Shown: piece after piece, positions 4,519 through 63,800 of the stretch
Position numbering within the stretch: position 1 is the first letter of the stretch
Layout of the letters: the number at the start of each line of letters is the position of its first letter
DNA from: Collybia mongolica
Taxonomy: Eukaryota; Basidiomycota; Agaricomycetes; Agaricales; Clitocybaceae
NCBI GenBank assembly: GCA_013420905.1
Contig: JAAXNY010000008.1
Location: forward strand, 1 to 64,000
Length of the DNA stretch: 64,000 nucleotides
Direction: 5' to 3'
Notes under the pieces: model-generated
What the model was told of the DNA's origin: nothing
The model's input: only the letters and a program-made list of their open reading frames with translations
The model's database searches: none
Program-made: the position numbers and the translations under genes

Positions 4519-5373
4519 GCAAGCACTAGTTGAGAGTGGAAACTCTATATGAGAGGACATCAAGTGAAATAGTTGAATGGGACCTTACGAGCTCTTAAGG
4601 GCTTTTGTGAGATTCCGTATCGTCCCCGTGGCTGTTCGCCCGATTGGCTGTCTGAAAGAAGTTAGCGTTTTCGCTAAAAAAATCCTAAAGGGTGTTGTGA
4701 CCGAAACGGTAACCCTAGCGTATGAGCCATCGGCATACGGTGATACGGCGCGTAATCACGGACTAAATGGCCCTTAGCAACTTTGAGGCATAGTTCAAGG
4801 AAACTGCATCACAGAGATCAGGTTGTAAAATCACCCTCGACACAACATATAAACTACAAGGCTCACCATGGTCCAAAACGAACATCTAGTTCGCATGGTT
4901 CGGCAAAGTAGTTTAGCACGAACAGTAATCGTAGATCTTGGGGTGACTTGAATCATGCCAAAAATATAACGTTTTTGCATTTGTTTTTTCGGGGGTCTGC
5001 GCTTTGATATCTCCGTTTAAGTCCGGTCACTCGTGGCTGGGCTTCCTCTTCGAAATTTTGGCCGAAACCCGGGCGCCCTGGTTTTACCTTTGTTTTACAG
5101 CGTTACAACCGACTGCGACATTCTTCCCGCCAAACTACTTTCGACGACGAAGTTCTTTCTCCACTTTACACCATCGCTCGGTTTCTATCCATCGCTACAC
5201 GCGTTCTAATTACCTTAAAGGGTATTTGTGCATCGCTTGGGCCATGTGACATGATCGACATCCCTTTATTGAATCTTCCGTGGCTTCATCATGTCCGATG
5301 CGTTGCTGTCTCGAAGTGCCTGTTCGCTAAGCACGAGGCATCGTCTTGCTGTTTGATCGTGGTTACAATGAGG
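4519..5373 (+). repeat. Dispersed repeat, copy 1 (about 855 bp)
   Basis: Matches 20129-20980 in the same orientation. The first 280 bases carry many substitutions and small indels, whereas the last 580 bases (from about 4795) appear identical by eye. No terminal inverted repeats and no flanking target duplication are visible. A GTGACCG-AAA-CGGTAAC hairpin lies near 4700. The longest shared open frame (81 codons, 5004-5249) resembles no transposase I know. It could be a solo LTR with flanking sequence, a non-autonomous element or a segmental duplication. Confidence 0.85.
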
Positions 5374-20128: not shown

Positions 20129-20980
20129 GCAAGCACTAGTTGAGAGTGGAAACTCTATATGAGAGGACATAAAATAGTCAAATGGGACCCTACGAGCTCT
20201 TAAGGGTTTTTGTGAGATTCCGTATCGTCCCAGTGGCTGTTCGCCTGATTGGTCTTGTCTCAAAGAAGTTGGCGTTTTTGCTTAAAAAAAACCTAAAAGG
20301 TGTTGTGACCGAAACGGTAACCCTAACGTATGAGCCATCAGCATGTGGTGATATGGCGCATAATCCCAGACTAATACACCTGAGCAACTTTGAAGTATAG
20401 TTCAAGGAAACTGCATCACAGAGATCAGGTTGTAAAATCACCCTCGACACAACATATAAACTACAAGGCTCACCATGGTCCAAAACGAACATCTAGTTCG
20501 CATGGTTCGGCAAAGTAGTTTAGCACGAACAGTAATCGTAGATCTTGGGGTGACTTGAATCATGCCAAAAATATAACGTTTTTGCATTTGTTTTTTCGGG
20601 GGTCTGCGCTTTGATATCTCCGTTTAAGTCCGGTCACTCGTGGCTGGGCTTCCTCTTCGAAATTTTGGCCGAAACCCGGGCGCCCTGGTTTTACCTTTGT
20701 TTTACAGCGTTACAACCGACTGCGACATTCTTCCCGCCAAACTACTTTCGACGACGAAGTTCTTTCTCCACTTTACACCATCGCTCGGTTTCTATCCATC
20801 GCTACACGCGTTCTAATTACCTTAAAGGGTATTTGTGCATCGCTTGGGCCATGTGACATGATCGACATCCCTTTATTGAATCTTCCGTGGCTTCATCATG
20901 TCCGATGCGTTGCTGTCTCGAAGTGCCTGTTCGCTAAGCACGAGGCATCGTCTTGCTGTTTGATCGTGGTTACAATGAGG
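20129..20980 (+). repeat. Dispersed repeat, copy 2 (about 852 bp)
   Basis: Second copy of the repeat at 4519-5373, same orientation. The 5' third differs by scattered substitutions and short indels; the remainder appears identical to copy 1 and includes the same 81-codon open frame (20611-20856). The flanks of the two copies are unrelated, with no matching target duplication. Confidence 0.85.
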
Positions 20981-24768: not shown

Positions 24769-25850
24769 TAATATGCAAGTTCAACTGCGCAAACAAAGTT
24801 TGCACCTAGTGTCGCTGTTATTGAGACGGAACGTCGGTGAAATTGACTAAATATACATACCGTATAGACGAGTGCCCAGAAATACCCAACGAGTCTGATC
24901 ACTAAGCTCCACAGTGCCCATCCATAATTTGCGCAGCGTGTTGATTGTGGTATCAGGAGAGCATGCGAAATTCTCGTCCTAAGAAAACAATATGGTGTTT
25001 ACTCTTCTCTTCCATGCTACAACATCTGCCTTCCAGTTTTTCCCCTCTTCGTAATCTTCTCATCACATCCGTAGTTGGAAAGATAATCTTGTCACCTGAT
25101 CGCCTCAGTGCCCATGGATCCTAGGCCACATCTGTTCCCACTAGCGACAGAGTCTCGGGTATACGGGAGGTGTGGACTGGGTTTCATATCCGCGAGCAAC
25201 AGCTCGGTGAGCCATTGTACCTGTGGAAAAGGCGGTCTATAACATTGCGTCGCGCGTATGTCCTCAGCGTATCAAGCCCAAAATTGAAAATCAGGCATAC
25301 CGATGAACCCCTAATCTTATATCCCTCGACCTCAGAAGTCCAGATTTGACTATCAAGATGTAGCGACGGCTTTGTTGTCGTGGGGGAAAGATAAGAAGTG
25401 AGTCCTCCCACGCCTGCAAAGCCGAACGTTTATCGTTATGTGACGCCTCACAAGTTCGTTGACACTCAGTCTAAACTCATATCAAGCAATTCAAGCCGTG
25501 TTTCAGTTCCTTCTGTTCCTCGAATAGAATCTTTCGGTATTGTTGGAAGGCCCCGGTGTCAATCTCTTCAAATGCACGATCGGTAAACCCTAGAAACCCC
25601 CGCCATAGAGTTATCTGCGCCATACAAGAAGTCGCGCACCCACAACAGCATCTAAAGTATTCATGGCCAGGATGATGGATGTTGAGCAAAATGAAATTCT
25701 AAGACGAACGTGCGCACGGACCAGACGCAATATGCACCTGACCGTGTTTATAATCACACGTGACCCCTGTCGCAACGAACAACGCGTCGACCATCTCATT
25801 CCTTTCTTGCATCATCCTACTCGCTACTCTTTCTTGACTACGTGCCCATA
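24769..25850. other. Intergenic region with minus-strand coding scraps
   Basis: It lies between the fragment and the coiled-coil gene. Minus-strand open stretches at 25184-25411 and 25611-25799 read partly like protein, but no gene could be built. It contains the short repeat at 25501-25590. Confidence 0.4.
25501..25590 (-). repeat. Short dispersed sequence, copy A
   Basis: About 85 bases that match 42145-42230 when read on the minus strand, with roughly nine differences. In one frame both copies read EEIDTGAFQ-YRK-LFEEQKELK, and the differences are mostly synonymous or conservative. It may be a fragment of a coding exon or a short retroposed element. Confidence 0.7.
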
Positions 25851-37889: not shown

Positions 37890-40800
37890 CAAGAACTATG
37901 GAGTAGTCAGAAACTCAAGATCTCTAGTCGGGTTGCTTTGGTCGGCTAGATGGATCCCCCGAGGCTATCGATCGCCTCACAGTGTAAATTTAACGTATAC
38001 TTTCAATATGATGATTATCATCTGGGTGGGTCAGGGGAATAAATATAATATAGGCTTAAGTGATGGTGATACTCCGGCCTTCTTCCGGAAGTCATTTGAA
38101 ATGTATACCAACCTACAAACACGGTGGACTCGTGAGGTTAGGTCTAAAAGGATCAAGGAAGTGGAGAGAAGAGAGGAAGCTCACTGTCGATCACGTAGAT
38201 TAGATACCACTGATGTTTCCCAAATTCCATCTTCTTCTCCAAGCACACCAGTGGCCGTGAGTATACTATAGATGCCGCGACGGGTTGGAGACAGGCAGAA
38301 AGAACTGTTGACTCGGTTCGTATGCTCAATAGTATATGCAAGCGGCCTGGATGTGTCGCGCGAAACCTCAACGGGGAAAATCAAGTAATTAAGGTTGATT
38401 ATCCTCTACTCTTCCACCATAATTGGGTCAGACCACCGGTACGTTCTTTCATGCGTCTTTGGCTGTTCATTAGCAATGCGCCAGCCTGTGGAAGGTCAGT
38501 ATAGTAGAACTTCACTAAGATACCACCCACTAACGAAGATCAGATTATAAAATGCAATCCGTTCACAATCGTCTCCAGGCGTCCATATGAAAACATTACT
38601 ACCATTTTGAAAAGCGGAAAAGGACGTTAGGTGGTTCGGATTAGAGGGAGTCATGTGTATTCAAGGTGTTAGGTTAGTCGTTCATTTTCGTGCTTGTAAG
38701 GGTTTGTCCAGGCCATGTGCTAGCCTGGAGAAATAAACTCGCATCTGCAACATGGTCGGGAGACTAATTAGAATGCATCAATCTGGATTGATGTTAACAG
38801 GCCGAATGCTCGGAAATTCATAGACTCTGTACCTTTTATCTGTTACTTATTTTTACGCCAGGGGGTATTCATGTCAATGACCTTAGAATATTAACTCCTC
38901 TCCTGCCTCATTGCATTGTCAACCAAAATCACATCCGACGCACATTAAATACATACCTTACATACCGGAACCCCAGTCTGGACTCATTTTTTTAACGGAT
39001 CACAACCAAAGCCAGTGTTTCCCCCACTCCGCTCCTTCATTCCACCTCCCGCGTTCCCGAGCCGTGTCATGACCGGTAAAGAGCTCACTGGTCTCTGCGC
39101 TCTGACATTTTGGCTCAGGCTAGACTGGGGGGATTCGGGGCGTCAGCTAGTTTTCGGATGATGGGTAAAATCAACATTATTGGGAGTGCGCATTAATATA
39201 CAGTGCAGGCTATATGGAGCGCGTCAGAAATAGCGAGCGCGACTTGAATAGCGACAATGAATATATAGTAGTTCCGGGTGCTTGAGCAGAAGGCTTTCCG
39301 TGTTGGGTGTCATAATACATGAAATTCTTTACAAAAGGGAGCGTGTTGATAATGAATTATGTGCAAGAAACGGATATGTATACATCGCATCCAGCATTTC
39401 ATAGGCGACGAAGGTGGAGCGGAGAGCGGAGAAACAAACTGATACCTGCATGCCGCCCTCTCATGAGTCAAAATCTACGAGGAGCCCATGCATTTTCTCT
39501 GGCCATTGGACATAAGTACTCACGATATAACGAAGTTGTCGGGCACGAACAGGAAATTTGGAGTAAATGAAAGAGGGTAGAACATCGAATCATGGGTGGA
39601 CCCTAATGAGAATCGATATCGTTACTGCGAGCTCGGGATGTGCAACGTTGTTGATAAGAAAGAAAATCGCCTCATACACGCCACGTGCCACGTGTCATAC
39701 ATCACGAGTGGCTGCCTAACGCCTAACTCCGCCGAGGAATGTGTCGACATACTCATCTCTTGAAAGCGCGTCTCTCTTGCTCCCTCAAATTCACCCTAAT
39801 ACTCCACGTCCCTGCCTGTCTCCCACATACGACGCTGGTGTGATGACTAGAAAAACCAAAACATATGTCGTACAGGCACCCATGCCGTGACTGCGGGGAA
39901 TTGTGCAGCGATGCAAGTGGTGGAGAGGGGTTCGCATTGGTGAGAGATTGTACTCTGTAAGGGGAAGCTGGACAGCGCTCCAGGAATTTTGAACGAGAGA
40001 AATTATGTACTTATCTCTTTCACCCATATCCTCACTGCGCGCCCCAATATCCCATAGCCTTGCCCTCATGATCGGTTATGGACCCCATTTTCCGTCGCCC
40101 CATCCCTCCTCTATCCATCCGATGACTCCATCACTCCACCTTCGCCATCCCTTAATCACTGCCACCAACCCGCTTAAGTGCCGCTGCCGCCCCTAACTCA
40201 ACTCGTGTATCTGAGCGTCCATCACCAACCTAGAAAGCGTCACGAGAATGGAGTGCAGCTGGCGTTGTATGTGAATCTGTCTGATCATGTTCGAGGTGGA
40301 GTGCAGTTTGCGTTAGCAGGGAAAACTTTCGGGAGGGATAAACAGCACGACCTTGATTTCATAACGCTTGATTAACGAGATTGGGTGTGTACTCACATTT
40401 CTCAACGTATCTACCGTCCTGATTATGTGTCCAAACACCTGCAGCCTCAGCTCGGGTCTTCTTTCAGAAACTATCCTCTGTAACCTGGGGTCTGTCCTCC
40501 GACTTGCCAACGCCCAACCCCAGCCCGCTGTCATCACGCCCCTCCATCTTCCCACCGAACCTGTACGAAGCCACGGGGAATATCGTTCCTCAAGCAAGAA
40601 TGTCACCAGCTTTCAATTACGTCCAGACGACGCATCACGCCGCATGGATAGCGCTAAATGGATGAGAAGCTTCAATCAGGTGTTGGGAACGTAGGCAATG
40701 GCATTTGCGGATATGCATCCCTACGCGTTCGTTGTTAACATTCATGAGGAGTGCTGGGGTAGGAATCTGAACATGAACGCTGTTTACGGCCGACGAACGC

Positions 40801-42145: not shown

Positions 42146-42249
42146 GATCGCGCAGTTGAAGAGATTGATACCGGGGCCTTCCAAAAATACCGAAAGGTTC
42201 TATTCGAGGAACAGAAGGAACTGAAAGCTGCTTTTTTTTTTTTTTTTTT
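42145..42249 (+). repeat. Short dispersed sequence, copy B, with T18 tract
   Basis: Bases 42145-42230 match 25501-25590 (inverted) and are followed by 18 T residues (42232-42249). The piece sits exactly at the break point of the truncated gene. An A-box-like TGATCGCGCAGTTG and a weak B-box-like GGTTCTATTCG about 45 bases apart, then a T run, are compatible with a small RNA polymerase III element. The good coding frame in both copies argues instead for an exon fragment. Confidence 0.55.
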
Positions 42250-42973: not shown

Positions 42974-45093
42974 CTACAAATATTCCCCATCAGATCCAGA
43001 ACCTGCATAGTCCAGCCAGGTGTCGGGAACATCTCTAAAAGAATCCGCATTGTATGGACCTGGATGTACAAGTGGTTCATCATCTGAAGATATCATGGCC
43101 ACTGCATCAATGGCCGACATTGCAGCAGCTGAAGCGGAACCACCTTCCCCATCCAAAACTGAGCCACCATGACTTCCCTCATCTGATGATATCATGGCCA
43201 CTGCATCCAGGACCGAAATTGCAGTGGCCAAAGTAGAGCTATGATGATTTCCCTCATCCGACAATATCATGGCCACCGCATCCATAGCCAAAATTGGAGT
43301 GGCCGAAGCAGCACCACTTTCCCCATCCAAGATCATAGCCAATGCAGCAAGAGCTGACAATGGATTGGCTGCACCCCCATGACTTCCCTCGTCAGATGAT
43401 ATCATAGCCACAGCATCCCAGGCTGAAGCGGAGCCATCATGACTTCCCTCATCCAATGATATCATGGCCACTGCATCCACAGCCAAAGTTGGAGTGGCCG
43501 ATGCGGCATCACCAACCCAATCCGACATTGTGGCTGCTGCAGCTATGGTGGGTACACTGGCTGGGGCTTGCATGATACGTTGAGGGGGGGCTGATTCATC
43601 ATCTGAAGATGCCTGATCTACTGGCTGGGCTTTAATAAACACATGGTGGTGCGGGGCCAAAGGAGTAGGCAAAATTGTAGGCATGGGAGATGCCAGTGCT
43701 GGTGCCAGTGAGGGAGCAATCCGATCAGCCACCGGAATGTCAGTGGAAGAAATGAAAGATATATTTGCTTGGGGGGATAAGGGACCTGCCTGACTATCTG
43801 TGGACATACTGTATGGGTATCTTTGTTTAGTGCTAATGGGGTAGGATGGGGTGCGGGGGACGGTGCAGTTGAACCAACGGCCAGAATGGCCAAGCTCGGC
43901 ATGCCAGGGAGATCCAGACCAGGAGTGTGTGTAGGGAGTTTTCCCAATGGATACCTGCCACTGTGTCCTGATTTTCCAAACCTTAAAGGCCAAAAAGAGA
44001 AGTGAGATGGTATTTGAAGGGGGGACAGCTCTGGAGGATCCTGGATATCCTTGCTGAGTGGGCTGAAGTGTACATCACTAGGGAAGATTTCATCGGCATC
44101 AGAATAACTGTCACTTTCTGCGCTATTGGCCAGGCTTGCATCATACCCAGAATGTGGCTGTGCAAAATCATGGCTATCTGAGTGCACAAGCTGGCGGACA
44201 TCATCCATAGATAGAGTGATACCAGCGGACCATTTGAGGAGTGGTGCTGACTCTAGCCGCTGTTGTTCTGCATGGGCTTCATCCTCTACAGCGTGGCCAA
44301 GGGTGGCTCGCTGCCGCATTGGCAGTGGATTGTCCCTGAACATGGATTCAGTCTCTTTCAACATGGCAGCTTCAAATAATTCATTAAAGCCGGAAGCGCG
44401 CCAGATGGTCTGTCTCATTTGGCTGTACTGAGAGATTATGTGAGCATCAACCCGATGCTGCAAACCTTGGAGGGCCATTGGGAAATCAAGCCAAGCTGAT
44501 TGGCCAATTGGCCATGTGTTTGCTGATACCGGCATATCAACGGCAGATGGTATTGCTGCTTGGGCCACTTCAGAACAATACTTCAAATTGAACCTCAGCG
44601 CTTTTCCAATAGTCTTGCTATTGATATACTGGGAAGGGTTTGCCAGTTTTGCACAGCTGACCCACCAGCTCAGTTGATATTTGGCAACAACTGCAGTAGG
44701 ATCATTGTAGGTGGTGCTAGCATCAAGTAACAACTTAAATGGTTCTGAGTAGTCAAGCATTTGCTGATCGGATGTGGTGAGTGACCAAGTGGCAGCAAGG
44801 GATCTGGTTATGATTGGGATCTGTATGTTGCGGCTAGTGGCTGTGGCCAATCCAATGCATGCCAAAGCAAAATCCTGAAAATTTGTTGGAATGTACACAA
44901 AAACATGCCAAATTGGGGGACATACCAACTCATTGAAGAGGTTAATCTGTAGTGCTTCCTGTGCCCTGCTGGATGCTTGGGCAATGGCAGATAGTGCTGC
45001 TTGGAAGCGTGATTCACAATAGAAGATCACCCTTTGTAGACTATCTAGATCTTCAATCAAAGTAGGAATTGCCTGATTTGAGTTTGGGTTCAA
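42974..45093 (-). CDS. Unrecognised island protein with tandem SIM-like repeats, about 680 aa, 5' end unresolved
   Basis: Two long overlapping minus-strand frames (45093-43618 and 43993-42974) are best joined by an intron at 43874-43798 (weak GTTCAA donor, CACTAAAC branch site, CCACAG acceptor), which keeps phase and gives about 680 residues. The first frame has no ATG near its start. It opens after a CTTAG acceptor-like site near 45110, so an upstream exon is missing. The N-terminal 280 residues look folded (for example ICLATATS-like helices, KALRFNLKYCSEVAQ, MRQTIWRASGFNELFE). An acidic Ser-rich linker and a Pro-rich part follow. The C-terminal region carries five copies of DAVAMISSDEG(S/N)H-like repeats plus a degenerate one. 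No transposase or nuclease motif is seen. It lies in an AT-rich island and is divergent from the gene at 46571. Confidence 0.65.
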
Positions 45094-45510
45094 GTGCGTG
45101 AAAGTACTAAGTTTTTAATAGTACTAGTCAAGGCCTTTTTTTCACTGATCTCTTGATCAGTTTGACTTGGACAAAGTCTTAACACAAGTGTTTAGACCTT
45201 AGGTATATTTTTATAATCTCTTTCACTTTAATAGACTGAGTACCAAGTGTACATTCAATTATTAACAATCCCAAATGGATCAATAAGTCCAAGTGACTTT
45301 TAAAACAAGAGTGCCCAGTGTACCAAAGGCCAAGGTCAATAATTCCAATGGACAATATGAGTACTAAGTTCCAAATGAACTGAACCCTTCAATTCTGTGA
45401 TCTCTTTAGCCAAATGCTTTGAGACAATTTTAATCAAGACAGTTGAAGCAATCCAATCCTTAATTTGTGTGTGCAATAGTGTTTCAACAAATATGATTTG
45501 TATATCCTAT

Positions 45511-45860
45511 AGTACTATCTCACCCCCTACAATCGGTTTGCACCCTCTTTTGGTTTGCACCTAGATCTTAACATCTGCCAGCCCATTCCCTTAGTGTTTC
45601 GAGATCTGACATACTGATACCTCTATGAATACAATCCTGGCATTTTAATACAATTCTATGTGTTTTTGAACATGGTCAAAAAATGGCCTTTTGTCATGCT
45701 TGCCACCAGTGCCAAATAATCAAATATAGATAATTGGCCTCGGTTAGTTTGTCTCTTGGCGTTTCATTTTCAGACTTGTTTGCCAAAACCAACTGATGTG
45801 ACATGTCTGTGACAAACCAAAAGAGGGTGCAAACTGATTGTAGGGGGTGGGATAGTAGCT
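45511..45860. mobile_element. MITE-like element, about 350 bp with 48-bp inverted ends
   Basis: 45511-45559 (CTATCTCACCCCCTACAATC then TTTGCACCCTCTTTTGGTTTG) is repeated in inverted orientation at 45809-45860 with about five differences. The interior of about 250 bases has no coding frame. The long terminal inverted repeats and small size fit a non-autonomous DNA transposon. No clear target duplication was found at the ends. Confidence 0.7.
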
Positions 45861-46570
45861 CAAAGTGGGGGCAAAATTCCTTACCTCTGCGCTACCTATC
45901 TATAATCTATTTATAGTGTACAAACTTAATTATGAAGAATCATAATTTTATGTGGAACAAGACCCTTCTGCACCAAGGGCTTGTGTTTTAATGCTGACTT
46001 GTCCTCTATGACTTGGCACGCATGCCATATGTGTCAATTATGTTGTTACTTATTACTTGGCCAATATCAAGAGAGCTGGCTAAAATCTTATCAACACTTG
46101 GCAGTGTGCTTGGTTATTTTTAAAACAGCACAGCACTGTCTTTTACTTCTCCTGATTGTTCCAGTTGTTATTTATGGTGTCCCATCTTTCCAGTAGTTAA
46201 CACCAAGTACCCCTGATTAGGCAAGTCCCAAATTTACAATTACTTCTCCTATTAATGATGATCCCCAAACTAATGATATCATACTACAAGGGTTACTTAT
46301 GGTTTAAAATACCAAGGTTGTAACCAGGCATGGTGAATAGAACTAATAATAGTCCATACTCATAGTCCTCTGTACTGATAGTGTATTAATCATTAGACTA
46401 GTTCACTCTAATTAACTGTCTCAAAGCTCAACTCTAATCCTTTATTACTGTTTACTTGGTTATTAGAAATGATACTAATAGCCTTACTTGTTGACTTTAC
46501 AAGTGCAAACAATTTTGGGCCCTATCACTGGTGCAAACAATGAGCTAGCAGTCACATATATTGTCCCACC

Positions 46571-47207
46571 ATGGATGCCCTATCTGGTATGTAGACTATA
46601 TTTAGCATCCAAACCTACATCCCCACTTAATTGTCAATAGGTGTTAGCACCAGAAAACAAAACTCAAGAAGACCTGGAACATTCAGATCATAAAAATCTA
46701 CCAACTGACATGATCAACTCTGTTAGAATTGCCAATAACTGTTTGACAATGTTGAAGGATGTCCTTTTGCTCTTTGAGAAAAATATCATTGCTATTGATG
46801 TTCATGTGAGTGATATCATTTTCACCTTACACTGGGGCTCAATGTATGCATAGGATGATTATTGTATTATCCAGTTTCATCAAGGCTCAGATGTCAATAA
46901 AGAGCTCAAAAAACCTCTGGAAAAATACTTGATACCGGGTGATAAAGGATCTGATGAATTCTTGTGTGGCCATTTTCTCTATAGCCTCTGTGTTCAAATC
47001 TATGGTGGCAACCACACATTGGAATTTCCTGAACCTTCTCTGACAAGATTTTTCAAGAGAATGGATTTATTTGAGGACAATGATCAGAGTCTTGCAGCTA
47101 AAATTTCTGACTATTCCGATGAAGGGTGGAAGAGTTATCTGGGACAGCAGGTTCAAGCATGGTATGAAAACAAACCTTATATAATGTGGTCAGCCAATGC
47201 TCTCTAA
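46571..47207 (+). CDS. Intact member of the repeated gene family (possible HNH-type nuclease C-terminal part), 3 exons
   Basis: Exons 46571-46586, 46648-46805 and 46854-47207 join in phase to 175 residues from an ATG at 46571. The introns are GTATGT..TTAG and GTGAGT..ATAG. The product has NNCLTMLKDVLLLFEKN, IIAIDVH, DDYCIIQF, then GSDEFLCGHFLYSLCVQIYGGN and a tail GWKSYLGQQVQAWYENKPYI. These align with the broken copies at 16.4 and 18.6 kb. By family analogy, NCL..D..IAID..Y resembles the end of an HNH_2 domain. If so, the catalytic 5' half is missing or lies in undetected upstream exons; the short first exon makes the start uncertain. The AT-rich base composition and codon use differ from the core genes. 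Confidence 0.55.
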
Positions 47208-48690
47208 ACCATCACTGACAGCCAGATGGTTTGTCAATATCACACCATGCCCCTAAAACCACCCTCATCTCTTTGACATTGAAGCATCTACCAACAGAAT
47301 CATTCCGCTGGAATCAGATTACCCCCTGAACAAAGCAATTCCCAAAACAATATACAATAAATTCATTACAATACATTGCTTGCAAAACTCACACACGCCA
47401 TGACACCCGGACTTGAACCTTCACTTCCAGGAATGCAGTTGTGCTGGCCCCTGTTCAATGTGGTCTTTGCCGGGATTTCGAGAGTGTGACATGCCTTTTG
47501 AGCAGATGCCAGCTGCAGAAGATTGGTCTGCCGCCACTGCCATGGGTGCATGAGTACCAACAGTTATGAGTAATCTCATATGCTGTTTGTCGGTAGAAGA
47601 TGGTGGAGTCCAAAATCTAGTCCAGCATTGTCTCACGATTTTTGGTCCATCCAGTCTTATGAGGGCCCAGTACAAAGGATCGGTTAAACCGAAAGGAAAA
47701 AACGAAAAATAAAAAATAAAAAATGAAAGGGTCACATGATATGGCAACGTGGGCGGCACGTGCAAATAACAACGTGGGGTGTCAACTAAGATCGACTACT
47801 TTGCAATTACCGAACTCGACGGCCATTTATCGCAACGGGAGCCCGGAGTGCCAGTACCGTTCAAAGTTCCAAGGAGCCTGGAAACTTCAACAGAACTGGA
47901 CCTCCAGCACATATGATGTAGGGCCTGTAGGCTGCCGCCAATGGTTGGGAGTGTAAGGTTGACGACCGTGGGCAACAGCAGCCACAGTGAGACCGGGTAA
48001 ACGAGAATATAGATGGCATTATTCCGAGCTTGTCGAGCTGACACTACTATATAAGGGAGGAAATGCATTAGTGCTCAGATTCTCTCAGTTCAGCTACTTG
48101 TGAGCAAGAAATAGGTGAGTCAAACTTTAGAAAATTGATCAGCTCTGCCTTGCTCATTTTCGACCCGTCAGAGCAACGTGCACATCTCTGAACGGAAGGG
48201 AAATCTTTAAAATGCATTTGAGTCAAATCCCAGTGATCATACAGGGAGTCACTTTGAATAACTATCAGTCTATGCTAACATGTACGTGCAAACATGTTTT
48301 ATCCAGGTTCTACATATCCACGAAGCGAGGTCATACTCCCGATTGGATGAATTCTTTCGTCATTGACACGTCGATATATCAAGGTTAACCTTGATCCCAT
48401 CGATCCAGATTTCGGCATGTTGATCCTACAGTAGCCAAAACCACAACAACTCTCGGTACGATTCTGAATGCAAATATCTTGATTGACTGCGCATTTGTTC
48501 ACCGATTTCTGTTTCTCAGGCTTCTTCACACTGTAGACAATGGCTATAAGCTTAAAAGCTTGACAGCCCGGTGGCGCCGTTGCGTGGTTGTGACCCTGCA
48601 TGGCATTGCCATTAGCGCCTCGTGGGTCGTCTGTCGCATATGGTATACAGTATTAGGGACAAAAACACTACGCACGTACTTCTCCATATC
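47208..48690. other. Island edge and unassigned sequence
   Basis: Base composition returns from AT-rich to normal around 47.4-47.8 kb. A TATA-like CTATATAAGG lies near 48050 and is followed about 60 bases later by AATAG|GTGAGT, which would suit a 5' untranslated exon of the plus-strand kinase-like remnant. No coding sequence is confirmed. Confidence 0.35.
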
Positions 48691-57375: not shown

Positions 57376-58295
57376 CTAACCCAGGTCCCATGCACATACA
57401 CAGACGCACTTAGAACCAACCTCCACACACGAAAAAACAGGGGAGGAAGAGACTTGTAATATTTGGATCCTCAAATACGGAAACACTGGGACACCAGAAT
57501 ACGAGAATACGAGAATACGGGATACCAAGAAAATACCAAGCACGCAACACAAAAAAAAAAAAAAACAAATAATACGTAGAATCTGAAATACTGAGAATAC
57601 TGAAATACGGGGCAAACGGCAAACGACAACGACAATGACAAACGACAAACGACAAACGACAAACGGCAAGACAGAAAGGAATAACAAGTTCTAATGAGCA
57701 GACGAGGAGAGGGCGACTTTTAGCTACAGGGGTGTGGCGGGCATATATCCAGGCGGACGACTAAGAATGGGAATGAGGGGGGCGGGGGCAGCGAATAAAT
57801 AACGATACGAAATACGAAATACGGAATACGGGATCACAGCAGAGAACGTATACGAAGCAGAGGCAGAGGCAGAGGCAGAGGCAGAAGTCAGATATAGGCG
57901 GTATATCGGATATCGGATATCGGATATCGGGTAGATCGTGGGGGGGCGAGGTGGGGGAAACAAAAAATGAAAAAACGAAGGAAATCAAAACGAAACGGAA
58001 ACGAAAAGCGAAAAGGGCAAACGAAAAGGGAAAGGGAAAAGGGCAAGAGATAAGGGAAAGACAAAGGTAAGGCATATATATATATATTTTTTATGTCGAC
58101 GGAGCAGGGGCGGGAGCGAGGGCGACGAGGCGAGGCGAGGTATACGCGGACATGGAGGGGGATGGTAAGGCATAAAGGCCCGGGCACGCCCAGAGGCCCA
58201 GCGAAACAACCATGAAGAAAAAACCGCAAAAACGCAAAAACGCAAAAACGCGAAACTGCAAAAAGAGAAAAAAACCCCCACGCCCCCACTGCCCT
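57376..58295. repeat. Microsatellite and minisatellite cluster 3' of the GATA gene
   Basis: Simple arrays follow one another: GAATACGA units (57485-57525), an A-tract near 57551, ACAAACG units (57611-57670), GAATACG-like units (57800-57830), GGCAGA units (57857-57885), GATATCG units (57900-57932) and AAACG/AAAGG-rich sequence to 58060. They lie downstream of the GATA factor stop codon and probably include its 3' untranslated region. Many open frames across them are artefacts of the repeats. Confidence 0.75.
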
Positions 58296-60802
58296 TTAAT
58301 CCCTCCTCCGCTCCTCCCTCTCCCGCTCCTCCCTATCCCTCTCCCTCTCCCTCCCTCTCAAGCTCTCCCTCTCCTCCCGCTCCCTATCGCGCTCCTTCTG
58401 ACCCTCCCTCTCCCTCTCCCTCTCCCTCTCTCTCTGGATCTCCCTCTGGCTCTCCCTCTCCCGTTCCCTCTCCCGTTCCCGTTCCCGCTCGCGACTCCCC
58501 TCGCGACTCCCCCCACGACTCCCCCTCGAGTCCCTCCTCTCCAACACCCCCCCGCCAACAGGGCTCACAGGCCGCAGGCGCGGGCTCATCCCCACGCCCA
58601 TACCCATACCCATACCTGACCCCATACCCATCCCGGCCCCAACCCCGACCCCAGCACCAGAGCCAGAGCCCGAAGGCCCATCCAACGCCCCACGCCGCGC
58701 ACTCGGCACAGGCGGGGGCAGCATCCGCGGCGAGTTCGCCGCGCTCCCTCTCGCCGAGCCCGGCCCTGCACCGTCCGCAGCAGCGGAAGAAGAGGAAGCG
58801 GACGACAAGGGCGGCGGCGGTGGCGGCGGGGGGGCGATCCCGGGACCGGCCATGGGGACGTCCCATGAGGGGGTGGGGAGCCCGGGGAGGGGCGGCGGGT
58901 AGTCGCGGCGGCTGTCGACGTGCATGGAGAGGCTGTCGCGCCTGTGCGTGTCGGCGCTGGTGCCGTTGGGCCCCCCCGAGTTGGGCCCGGCCCCGGGGCT
59001 GGGGTACGGGTTCGGGCTGGGGTTGGGGTATCCGGCCTGCTGCCCCTGATGCGGGTGCGGGTGTTGGTGTTGGTGTTGGTGCGGGTGTTGGTGGGAGGGG
59101 GGCATGGGCTGGGAGTGGAGGTGCGGGGAGGAGAGGGTGAGCGTGGGGTGGGAGAGGTGCGGGCTCTGGTGGTGGGGGTGGGAAGAGTGGGAGGGCGGGG
59201 TGCGCGCGCGCAGGGTGGACGAGGCGAGTGGCCCGCGCTTGTGTGGGAACTGCTCGGGGCGCGGGCGCGAGTGCGTGCGCTCGAAGAGCCCACATTTGTT
59301 GCATAGCTGCCGAGGGGGGTTAGCGCACGTTTACGGTAATAACGGTGAAGGTAACAACTCACGACTTTCCCAGGGCTCAAATTACTCCGTCTCCACGTCG
59401 ACGTGTCGGTGGTGCAGCAATTGAAGCACCTCCTCCTGACGCGATCGCTCAGCTTGGTCGCCGCGTCGTCGGTATGCACGACCGCAAGGGGCATCGCGCC
59501 GGGGTACGGCTGGTGTTGCGGGGGGTACCCGCCGCCGCCGCCGCCACCCGCGCTCCCGCCCTGGTGCGGGTGCTGGTGGTGCGCGGGGATGGCGTGGTGC
59601 GACATCTGCGGGTGGTAGTGCATCTGGCCATAATCCGCGCTGCCCCCTCCCCCTCCGCCGCCGCCGCCACCGCTGAGGCCGACACCGACCCCACCGGCGA
59701 CGCCGATGCCGACGCCGACGTTGAGGGGGTGCGGCGGGGGCGGGGGGAAGTGGTGGGGGTGGTGTGGGTGGGAGTGGGGGTGGGGGTCGTAGAGCTGCAT
59801 CTGGGGCGGGGGGGGCGCGGAGTGGGGGTGTGGTGCGTACATGTAGGGGTGGTACATGATGGCGTGGCCGTGGGTGAGGCCGGGGGGGTGGTGCTGCTGG
59901 GGGAAGGGAGAGGGGTGGGCAGGGTGGTGTGAGGGGGGCGGGGAGGGGCGGCGGGCGGGGGAGCGGGAGTGGGATTGGGAGTGGGAGGAGGAGTGGGAGG
60001 GGGTAGGGGAGTGGGTGGGCGGGGTGCTGGCTCCGAGGGGGGTGAGGTGGGGCGGGGGTGAGGGACGACGGGTGGAGGTGGAGGTGGAGAGGTGGGACTC
60101 GTAGGGGCGCCGGGTGGGGGGGAAGGGGTCCATGTGGTTGGGCATGAATTCGGCGGGGAACTGTGGGAGGGTTGGTTGGTTTGGTCAGTTGGGTGGTGGA
60201 GGGAGGGAGGGAGTGGGACGTACGTTTATACGAGTCGAGTCAAAGGCTGGTTTGGTGCCTGTGCCAGTGTTGGTGGTGGTGGCGTTGGTAGTGGTGTTGG
60301 CGGTGTTGGTGGTGGCGTTGGTAGTGGTGTTGGCGGTGTTGGCGGTAGTGTTGGTAGTGGTGTTGGCGGTGTTGGCGGTAGTGTTGGCGGTAGTGTCGGC
60401 GTTGTTGGTGGTAGTGTTGGCGGTAGTGTCGGCGTTGTTGGCGGTGGTATTAGTATCGGTGTTGTTAGCAGTGTGCTCTACAGGGACGTCTTGAGTGGAC
60501 GCGTCTTGGTTGGGGAGAGAGTCTTTAGGGGAGGTAGGAGCGTGACCGTTGGGGACAGCAGGGTTGGGGTTGGTATCGGTGTCAGTGACGTCCTGATGAG
60601 GGATGTGATCGGGAGGAGCAGCTGCTGATGTCGGTGATGCGGGCTTCGTCTCGGACTGCAGCGCTGCGCTGTCTGCCTTTGCTCCAGCCTCCTTGTGGTC
60701 CCTAAGCGTGAAATGATGGGGTGTTGCGTGTCAGAGTCAGAAAAAATACGAGACCTTGCGGGCTATATGAGCGATTCGAACGTACCAGCCAAACATGGGC
60801 AT
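58296..60802 (-). CDS. GATA-type zinc finger transcription factor, 767 aa, 4 exons
   Basis: Exons in gene order: 60802-60786, 60700-60223, 60160-59363 and 59306-58296, all in phase. The zinc finger is split by the last intron: CFNCCTTDTSTWRRSNLSPG then KVLCNKCGLFERTH, giving C-x2-C-x19-C-x2-C with the WRR and LCNKCGL signatures. GATA factors bind GATA-core sites in DNA; in fungi they control nitrogen, iron, light or developmental genes. The loop is longer than the common 17 or 18 residues, as in a subgroup of basidiomycete factors. Flanking regions are low complexity: an Asn/Thr repeat in exon 2, His/Pro/Gly-rich exon 3, then a Pro/Ser-rich part and an Arg-Glu repeat that ends the protein. 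The ATG at 60802 begins a tiny exon (MPMFG) ending at GTACGT; this start is inferred. GC content is much higher than elsewhere. Confidence 0.88.
60262..60450 (-). repeat. Asn/Thr-coding minisatellite in GATA exon 2
   Basis: On the coding (minus) strand, imperfect units of AACACTACC/GCC code for N-T-T and N-T-A tripeptides. The array is interrupted by N-A-D-T units. Length is a multiple of three throughout, so the frame is kept. Such arrays expand and contract easily and produce a disordered segment. Confidence 0.8.
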
Positions 60803-63800
60803 TGTTCAACAGGTGCTGTGTTAAGTTTCGGTCTGAGCGTTCGACTGATGCGATGGATGATCCCACTCTTGATCCCCAGGGCAAAAAAAAAAAAAAGTTG
60901 CAACACAACCAACAAATGAAAACGAAAAAAATTAAAAGTTAAAAAAATACTCTCTCGAGTCACACAAGTGACGTGTCACCGGCCGAATCGCCTCTTCCGT
61001 ACCACACCTGTGGGAAACGCAGCCTCAGATCGAGACCCAGATCGGGCATGCCGTGTGATCCGAGGCTGTGTCCCATCTGTCGCCGATTAAAAATAGCGGC
61101 GGGGGCTCCTGTCCCACGAACCCTTCCTGCCCCATCGAACCATTCGCACCCCCCCCCCCCAAAATCAAATACCTCCTACCGAACCGGGCCTCAAACGAGC
61201 GAGGTATGAACCGACCTCCCCCCCTTTTGATGCAATCGCCCCCCCCCCTAGGACTACCTTCCCAAGCCTTTGACCTTCCCACCGCCCCCGCCCCTCTCGT
61301 CTCACCTCGACAGCGCTTCTCGAGCCCTCGCCTTCCCTCCTTGCTCATCGCACCGCACAAATGTGGGTCAGCCCCCCCCCCCCCCCCCCACTTGGCAGAA
61401 CCAGAATCTGCACACCCGGCGGAGAGTTTGAGCGGAGGGGTGGGGTGGGGGTGTTATTCCCCGGGGTTCATCTCACAGCGTCCCATCTCGGTTCATTCAT
61501 CGTTCGTTGCCGTCACGTCCCGTTTCTACCCTATTTACCCGTACACACACACCACCCCCCTCACGCCCGTCTCCAGGTGCACTCCGGATAACCCCAACAC
61601 CCCAACGCCCCCCCTTCACCCACCCCAATTTCTCTTACAGTAATCTAATTTAGCAAGCAACAACAATAGCGCTGCCTAATGGGGGGTGGCACTTTGCGCA
61701 AGGGCCGCCGTGACGGCATCACAGCATCACGATGGCACTCCAGATCCAGATCCAGATCCCCCCCCCCTTCCCCTCTAGATCTCCTCCTACCTCCCAGTCG
61801 AAAAAGGGAAGCCCACCAAACACCCACACATACACACCCACACAGTGTCGCGTGACGAGTGACGCATAACATACGCACGGGGGGGCCGGAACGCGTCCAA
61901 ACGTCCCATCTGATGCGGTGCAGGGTCGCCGTGATAAGGATTCATCTGATGCATCAGCACACACACCCCTCTCTTCGACAGAATTCTCTAGATCCGGATC
62001 TATCCCCCCCACCTCGAGTCAAGACTCGAGTATAAGCGCCCGCCATCGATCGATAGTATGGCACTAACAAGCCCTATACAGGAAAAAAAAGAAAACTCTA
62101 TGACTCACTAGTGAAGAAACACAAGCATGTACTACACGGCACTACGGATATCACACACACACACGCACACACACTAGCGCTTCGCACGAACTCCGCGCAG
62201 ACCTCCCCGCCCGGCCTTCACCTTTTTGTTTTTTCTGCCTCTAGCTCTGGCTCTGGGCATGCGCATAGGGAACGCGCCTCTCGCACGCACGTTCCCCTTC
62301 TTACTCCCTTGGGTTTTGGCTTCTGGCTTTTAGGGATTTTTTTTTTTTCATGTCCCTTGCACGCCTCTCCTCCCCCAGAGCATGACGCATACGTACCACC
62401 CCGTGGACCCCAAACGCTCTTCAAACACATATACCTCTTCCCTTTATGTTTTGGCTCAACCGCTGGCGTTGGACCGTTCCTGTGCTCCGTATGGCATTCT
62501 TCCGTCACGTCTCCAGCTCGCCGCGGATGGGCCCGCACCACGCGAGCATGTGCAGAACCGGGCAAGTGGTTCGCGCCCGATCCTGAGGGCTGGGACTGGG
62601 ATGATGGCCCCCGACGCCGTGTGCTGTTGCAGGGACCGGCTACGGCGTCCTAAATGAAGGGTTTTTGCGGGTACCGTGGGGTTGGCGGTATGGGATTATG
62701 ACGCCCTCGGGTTGTGGGTTCGCCGTGTATCTGTAACGCTAAGATGCGTGCTGTATCCGACTTCAATGGGATTTTCTTTGGCTGTGTGCTTTTCATTGGT
62801 TCCGTTTGTTGGGGGAAGGAACCATCCTGTGGGCGTTATACATTTTCTGCGCCCTTGGGTTAGTGGTTATCTCTTTTTTGACTCTGTTGGCTGTGTGCTA
62901 TACAATGGTACCATTTTTCGGGGAGTGTATCTTCCTTGCTAAGATGCGCGTTGTCAGGGAATCCTTGCCGTATCCGACTTCCGTGGTTTTTCCCTTCTTT
63001 GGCTCTCTTGGCTGTGTGGTTCCATTTGTCCCACGGGATGCTCACGCCCATATACATTGACAAGCCCGACGCCGTACACGTCGCAGGCGGTCGGCCACGG
63101 TGTTCTTAGCAGAAACCGCTAAACCAATCCGAGGAATGACTCAGAGTTGCCTACGGAATCCTCGGTGGTTGGCGGTTTCAATGACGTGCCCACGTCCACG
63201 TCGACCGCTCACTGCCATCTTCGACAATTGTTCGCCTCCCCCGAACGCGGAGGATCAGTGTCGTCCGAGAACGATGGAATCAGTGGGTGATTGGAATCAC
63301 GGTCTCATCGGAAATAGCGAAAATGCATCAGGGAACGAACTCAAGGTCGGTGCTTGTGATCCACCTCGGCTGCAGAGAAGGCGAACGGCATAGATTGATG
63401 AGTGGGTCACACTCGTGGTGAGCTAGCTGGTGATCAGGCTCATGATGCTTGTGTGTGATACAGCCCGTCCCCCCACCCCTAATGAACTCGGGATCAGCTC
63501 ATAATTGAGGGGATCAGGAATATCAGTTTTTTCATAATCAAGAATATCAAATCTACGATTTGAAACCAATTACATCTTCGTGCTATCCATATTAGTTTCG
63601 CGATTTCTCACCATAAAATTCCATTCCCATGTCTTGTAAATCCTCGTTGGGATAATGGACGCCCCCCCACACCCGAGTGATTCCCCCTATAGCGGCCCAG
63701 TATTATTACCATATATCTGCGGTTCACGTGTCTGAATACAGCTTCAGATCCGGCACTTGAACTTGCATCATTCATTCATCACGTCTTGCGTGGATGTTTG

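Follow-up and report, generated by a model that had tools for sequence, protein, structure and literature searches.

The described systems closest to the loci reported here are the HNH_2 (PF13391) proteins of the Agaricales, represented by P0003 (Flammula alnicola), P0005 (Amanita rubescens) and P0006 (Tricholoma matsutake) and, in the same genome, by genes at C8:162-163 kb and C5:484.8-486 kb. C8 is the contig holding the window, the 64 kb stretch of DNA analysed here, which is its first 64 kb. Like the Agaricales proteins, the family found in the window has the block order CxxTG, [H/Y/W]I[V/M]P and RN, and like their genes it has a first intron that matches in place and phase and a second that lies within one codon. 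Unlike them, it lacks the first and second histidines of the HNH site, obtains no Pfam score and has a C-terminal domain not firmly relatable to theirs. Homing or mobile HNH endonuclease genes have at most a distant HNH ancestry in common with the family, which differs from them in lacking a catalytic site, in not being seen in an intron or intein and in showing no common copy ends. Repeat-fragmented fungal pseudogene clusters resemble the family in truncated copies, stops, inversions, repeat junctions and CpG loss by repeats, and differ from it in nothing essential; the unusual trait is a family without recognisable public protein relatives. We consider it likely that the loci are relics of a diverged, HNH_2-derived family with a probably non-catalytic ancestor, which was duplicated at the DNA level and then fragmented by repeats.

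When the 46 Mb, 26-contig assembly was searched with the family, at least nine pieces were found, all on contigs C8 and C7; this count is a lower bound, with the best candidates alone scored. Copy A (C8 16445-17661, minus strand) retained N- to C-terminal parts interrupted by stops and frame changes. Copy B (C8 17765-18772, plus strand), arranged head-to-head with A, was missing the first N-terminal part and had one frame change and two in-frame stops. Copy C (C8 41623-42145, plus strand) comprised the N-terminal half and ended just past the CAVTG block, which reads SAVTG in this copy, and an N-terminal fragment with one in-frame TAG was located at C8 38313-38489 on the minus strand. Copy D (C8 46529-47197, plus strand) was a piece of approximately 669 bp cut at both ends. 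On C7, copy E (141508-142060, minus strand) consisted of the last exons alone and was convergent and overlapping with copy G (141164-141552, plus strand), an N-terminal piece that was open across its matched length. Copy H (152815-153072, minus strand) was also N-terminal alone, and copy F (172498-174012, minus strand) had N-terminal pieces approximately 630 bp apart and was without the CAVTG part; a short extra match (C7:172462-172542, plus strand) overlapped the end of copy F on the opposite strand. No complete copy was present among the best candidates matched in the 46 Mb assembly.

The copies are related to one another. The protein match of D to A had an E-value of 3.0e-9 at 38% identity, the matches of A to B had E-values of 1.3e-19 and 7.1e-10, and the DNA match of A to C had an E-value of 1.7e-120 at 78% identity. 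The first-pass annotation had described four loci with common blocks in the window. The sharing of protein blocks beyond chance holds, but C stops after CAVTG, D reads PITG, and more pieces exist, namely the one at window 38313-38489 (minus strand) and four on C7. Termini common to the copies, which it had proposed to look for, were not seen; the ends of the pairwise DNA matches differ from one copy pair to another. An 81-base inverted duplicate (window 25501-25581 and 42146-42226), 94% identical with one frame open, begins directly past the end of copy C.

The resemblance to HNH_2 nucleases proposed earlier is supported as distant descent but fails at the level of the Pfam profile. With the Pfam HNH_2 profile (cut-off 21 bits), neither copy D nor the pieces of A, B, F and G gave a match, and the control gene at C8:162 kb scored 42 bits. 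When six family rows were compared by hhalign to 12 HNH_2 proteins, hand-picked among 85 matches to the C8:162 kb gene, the score was 34.8 (P 2.7e-4, probability 42%); a seven-row family alignment gave 36.2 (P 3.3e-4, probability 38%). In controls with the six-row alignment, the best of 100 column shuffles scored 23.7 and the reversed alignment 13.5. Intron places, read by eye, were compared to those of the C8:162 kb and C5:485 kb genes. In both HNH genes, the first intron lies after residue 10 in phase 0, counted with the first motif histidine as residue 1, and in A, B and D it lies after residue 10, also in phase 0, counted from the tryptophan or tyrosine at the first-histidine place. The second intron lies after codon 23 from the arginine of Arg-Asn in the two HNH genes and after codon 24 in D, E and F. 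The profile score above all 100 shuffles, together with the intron places, supports a distant descent of the family from mushroom HNH_2 proteins. The evidence against this descent is the hhalign probability of just 38-42%, the silence of Pfam and the shortness of the C-terminal match, in which the HFLYSL domain aligned to HNH proteins over 12 columns around V-x-A-W-L (score 19.8, P 0.017; best of 60 shuffles, 17.3); this domain could not be firmly related to HNH proteins. The C5 gene (C5:484600-486200) is of HNH_2 type, is open through its exons and has its introns at the same places as the C8:162 kb gene.

The two histidines of the HNH site were found to be replaced in every copy in which their positions survive. 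The first, in the CHI[V/I]P motif, is tryptophan in A and B and tyrosine in D (E and F are without that part), and the second, nine residues past the asparagine, is valine in A, B, E and F and leucine in D. Of the H-N-H residues that were to be checked, the asparagine alone was kept, in A, B, D, E and F. The first histidine is invariant across all 12 aligned HNH_2 proteins. The second is also missing from the public HNH_2 proteins P0003 and P0061, and its absence by itself is therefore hardly informative. A family ancestor already without the HNH site is suggested by the loss that A, B and D have in common.

Copy D retains three exon pieces, separated by introns at 46587-46640 and 46806-46853 with GT...AG ends. 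The first surviving piece (46530-46586, plus strand; GANNELAVTYIVPPWMPYL) has tyrosine at the HNH first-histidine place and the repeat end at 46528 as its left border; the start assigned earlier, 46571, falls within it. The second (46641-46805, plus strand; NNCLTMLKDVLLLF) contains the asparagine position and matches A, E and F. The third (46854-47197, plus strand) contains HFLYSL, is missing the native C-terminus and runs up to a local repeat at its right border. The coding part of D is single-copy in the genome, with 26-41% residue identity to the other copies and 45-47% nucleotide identity to A. Structures predicted by AlphaFold for the C-terminal exon of D (pLDDT 41.8) and for P0003 (pLDDT 35.0) were both unusable.

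Both borders of copy D are repeat DNA. Directly to its left lies a high-copy repeat (45061-46528), for which the best 40 of 498 candidate places were scored and two copies were aligned. Its right end (...CCCTATCAC) is common to the two fetched copies (C4 and C1), whose sequences diverge beyond that point; therefore, the "PIT" of the PITG motif found in D instead of CAVTG is repeat sequence, ending at 46528. A second dispersed repeat (44000-45064) extends leftward past 44000 and had at least 12 further full-length matches at 95-96% among 40 scored places. To the right, the local repeat (from about 47198 to 47524) contains the stop codon TAA of D (47205-47207); it recurs around C8:64 kb and C8:88 kb, and at those sites the sequence to its left bears no relation to D. 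With a high-copy repeat on the left flank and a local repeat on the right, copy D is a fragment, and not the one intact copy it had been taken for; the AT-rich island around it turned out to be mostly repeat DNA. C and D were also considered as halves of one gene split by a repeat. This was rejected because C is 81% identical to A with a CpG observed/expected ratio of 0.72, compared to 45-47% and 0.08 for D. Nested in the high-copy repeat is a 345-base element (window 45513-45857) whose 45-base inverted ends are 96% complementary; it is absent from other copies of the repeat, in which the site is empty and a few border bases are repeated. Two overlapping long ORFs on the minus strand (window 42974-45093; 339 and 491 aa) contain internal repeats and had no Pfam match.

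The CpG observed/expected ratio was 0.08 in copy D and 0.14 in the adjoining high-copy repeat. In copies A, B, C, E and F it was 0.72-0.85, and in the two ordinary HNH genes 0.72 and 0.83. Nine of 254 windows of 500 bases in the 64 kb had a ratio below 0.25, and all nine start between 44501 and 46751. Long-term CpG methylation leaves a mark of CpG loss, and methylation may be behind the loss at D and its repeat block. No strong CpG-decay signature was found between A and C, which differ by 62 transitions and 34 transversions, 12 of the changes being CpG-type.

Over 135 codons, 32 nucleotide differences separate E from F, and 20 of the 32 are at third positions (P 0.0007). Copy D is free of stops over 188 codons, for which the chance by base composition is 1.6e-6, a generous figure in that the exon borders were hand-chosen. 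The third-position bias between E and F and the open frame of D despite its 26-41% identity point to past selection on the family at the protein level. The loci would then go back to a small, strongly diverged gene family split off from Agaricales-type HNH_2 proteins, whose ancestor probably already lacked both HNH-site histidines. With both probably gone, our best guess is that the ancestral protein was most likely a small nucleic-acid-binding fold that did not cut DNA. The copies may have spread at the DNA level together with their introns, through local duplications and inversions on C7 and C8, and would later have been disrupted by deletions, frame changes, stops and junctions with repeats. 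Copy D would represent a separate and older branch, of which a fragment is left, attached to a repeat block depleted in CpG.

The first-pass annotation had favoured a selfish or mobile nuclease gene of the homing HNH type, of which one copy would be live and the others decayed. Several copies near repeats and the distant HNH relation would agree with such a gene, but an intact copy was not found among the best candidates, both histidines are replaced, the pairwise DNA matches stop at differing points and the coding part of D is single-copy; we regard this origin as very improbable. The outcome named there as refuting was largely observed: D and the tested parts of A, B, F and G had no HNH_2 profile match, and both histidines are replaced, although the asparagine is kept. 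Copy D might instead be a live short gene of approximately 170-190 residues that starts in or beside the left repeat and uses the stop codon of the right one. The 188 stop-free codons of its three exon pieces, at the chance given above for hand-chosen borders, and the GT...AG ends of its introns speak for this, but its N-terminal part is absent, its C-terminus and stop belong to the flanking repeat and its CpG loss is like that of the neighbouring repeats, which leaves a live D improbable.

Somewhat less improbable, though still unlikely, is that the family has no relation to HNH_2 and is an orphan family of another fold, in which the likeness at C-x-V-T-G and N-x-L arose by chance. The missing Pfam match, the failure to find a public protein relative and an hhalign probability below 50% would fit this; the score that beats all 100 shuffles and the matching intron places and phases, the second intron being one codon off, argue against it. 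The relic reading itself has evidence against it: the third-position bias of E and F and the open frame of G would also fit recently working copies, and unassembled sequence or another nucleus could harbour an intact copy. We give a similarly low chance to a bolder version, in which the family was a once functional, catalytically dead HNH_2 branch under protein-level selection, with no recognisable public relative and now lost from the assembly; if so, a dead-nuclease paralog could have acted in genome conflict or nonself recognition. For the loci as relics of an HNH_2-derived family, the wider meaning is modest: a supposed intact mobile nuclease turns out to be a fragment cut at both ends, and repeat borders can provide a fragment with a motif (PITG) and a stop codon that give it the appearance of a gene. 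A non-cutting HNH branch in mushrooms would be worth testing, provided that there is an intact relative.

In the public protein database, a shared-word search with the 189-residue translation of copy D gave 13 candidates (eligible to approximately 330 residues) and the seven-row family alignment gave 1635, with none at E 0.001 in either case. As a positive control in the same database, the C8:162 kb HNH_2 gene gave 85 matches among 103 candidates, including proteins from Amanita, Flammula and Tricholoma. Together with the shortness of the introns, these matches suggest that the DNA comes from an Agaricales-like fungus. Among solved structures, F had no match and the family alignment gave four, all at E-values of at least 0.27 and to proteins that look unrelated. 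Weak, sub-cut-off matches of family pieces to Fibrinogen_C and FUR were taken as chance. In a literature search, no family of this kind was named among the titles listed.

When ten ORFs of the window were compared to Pfam, one match was obtained, below the cut-off. Elsewhere in the window, a dispersed repeat of approximately 550 bp is present in two copies (4519-5071 and 20129-20678) that are up to 99% identical over 300 bases, and the G+C-rich stretch at 58000-61000 reaches 68% G+C, changes strongly in skew and contains numerous short tandem-like repeats.
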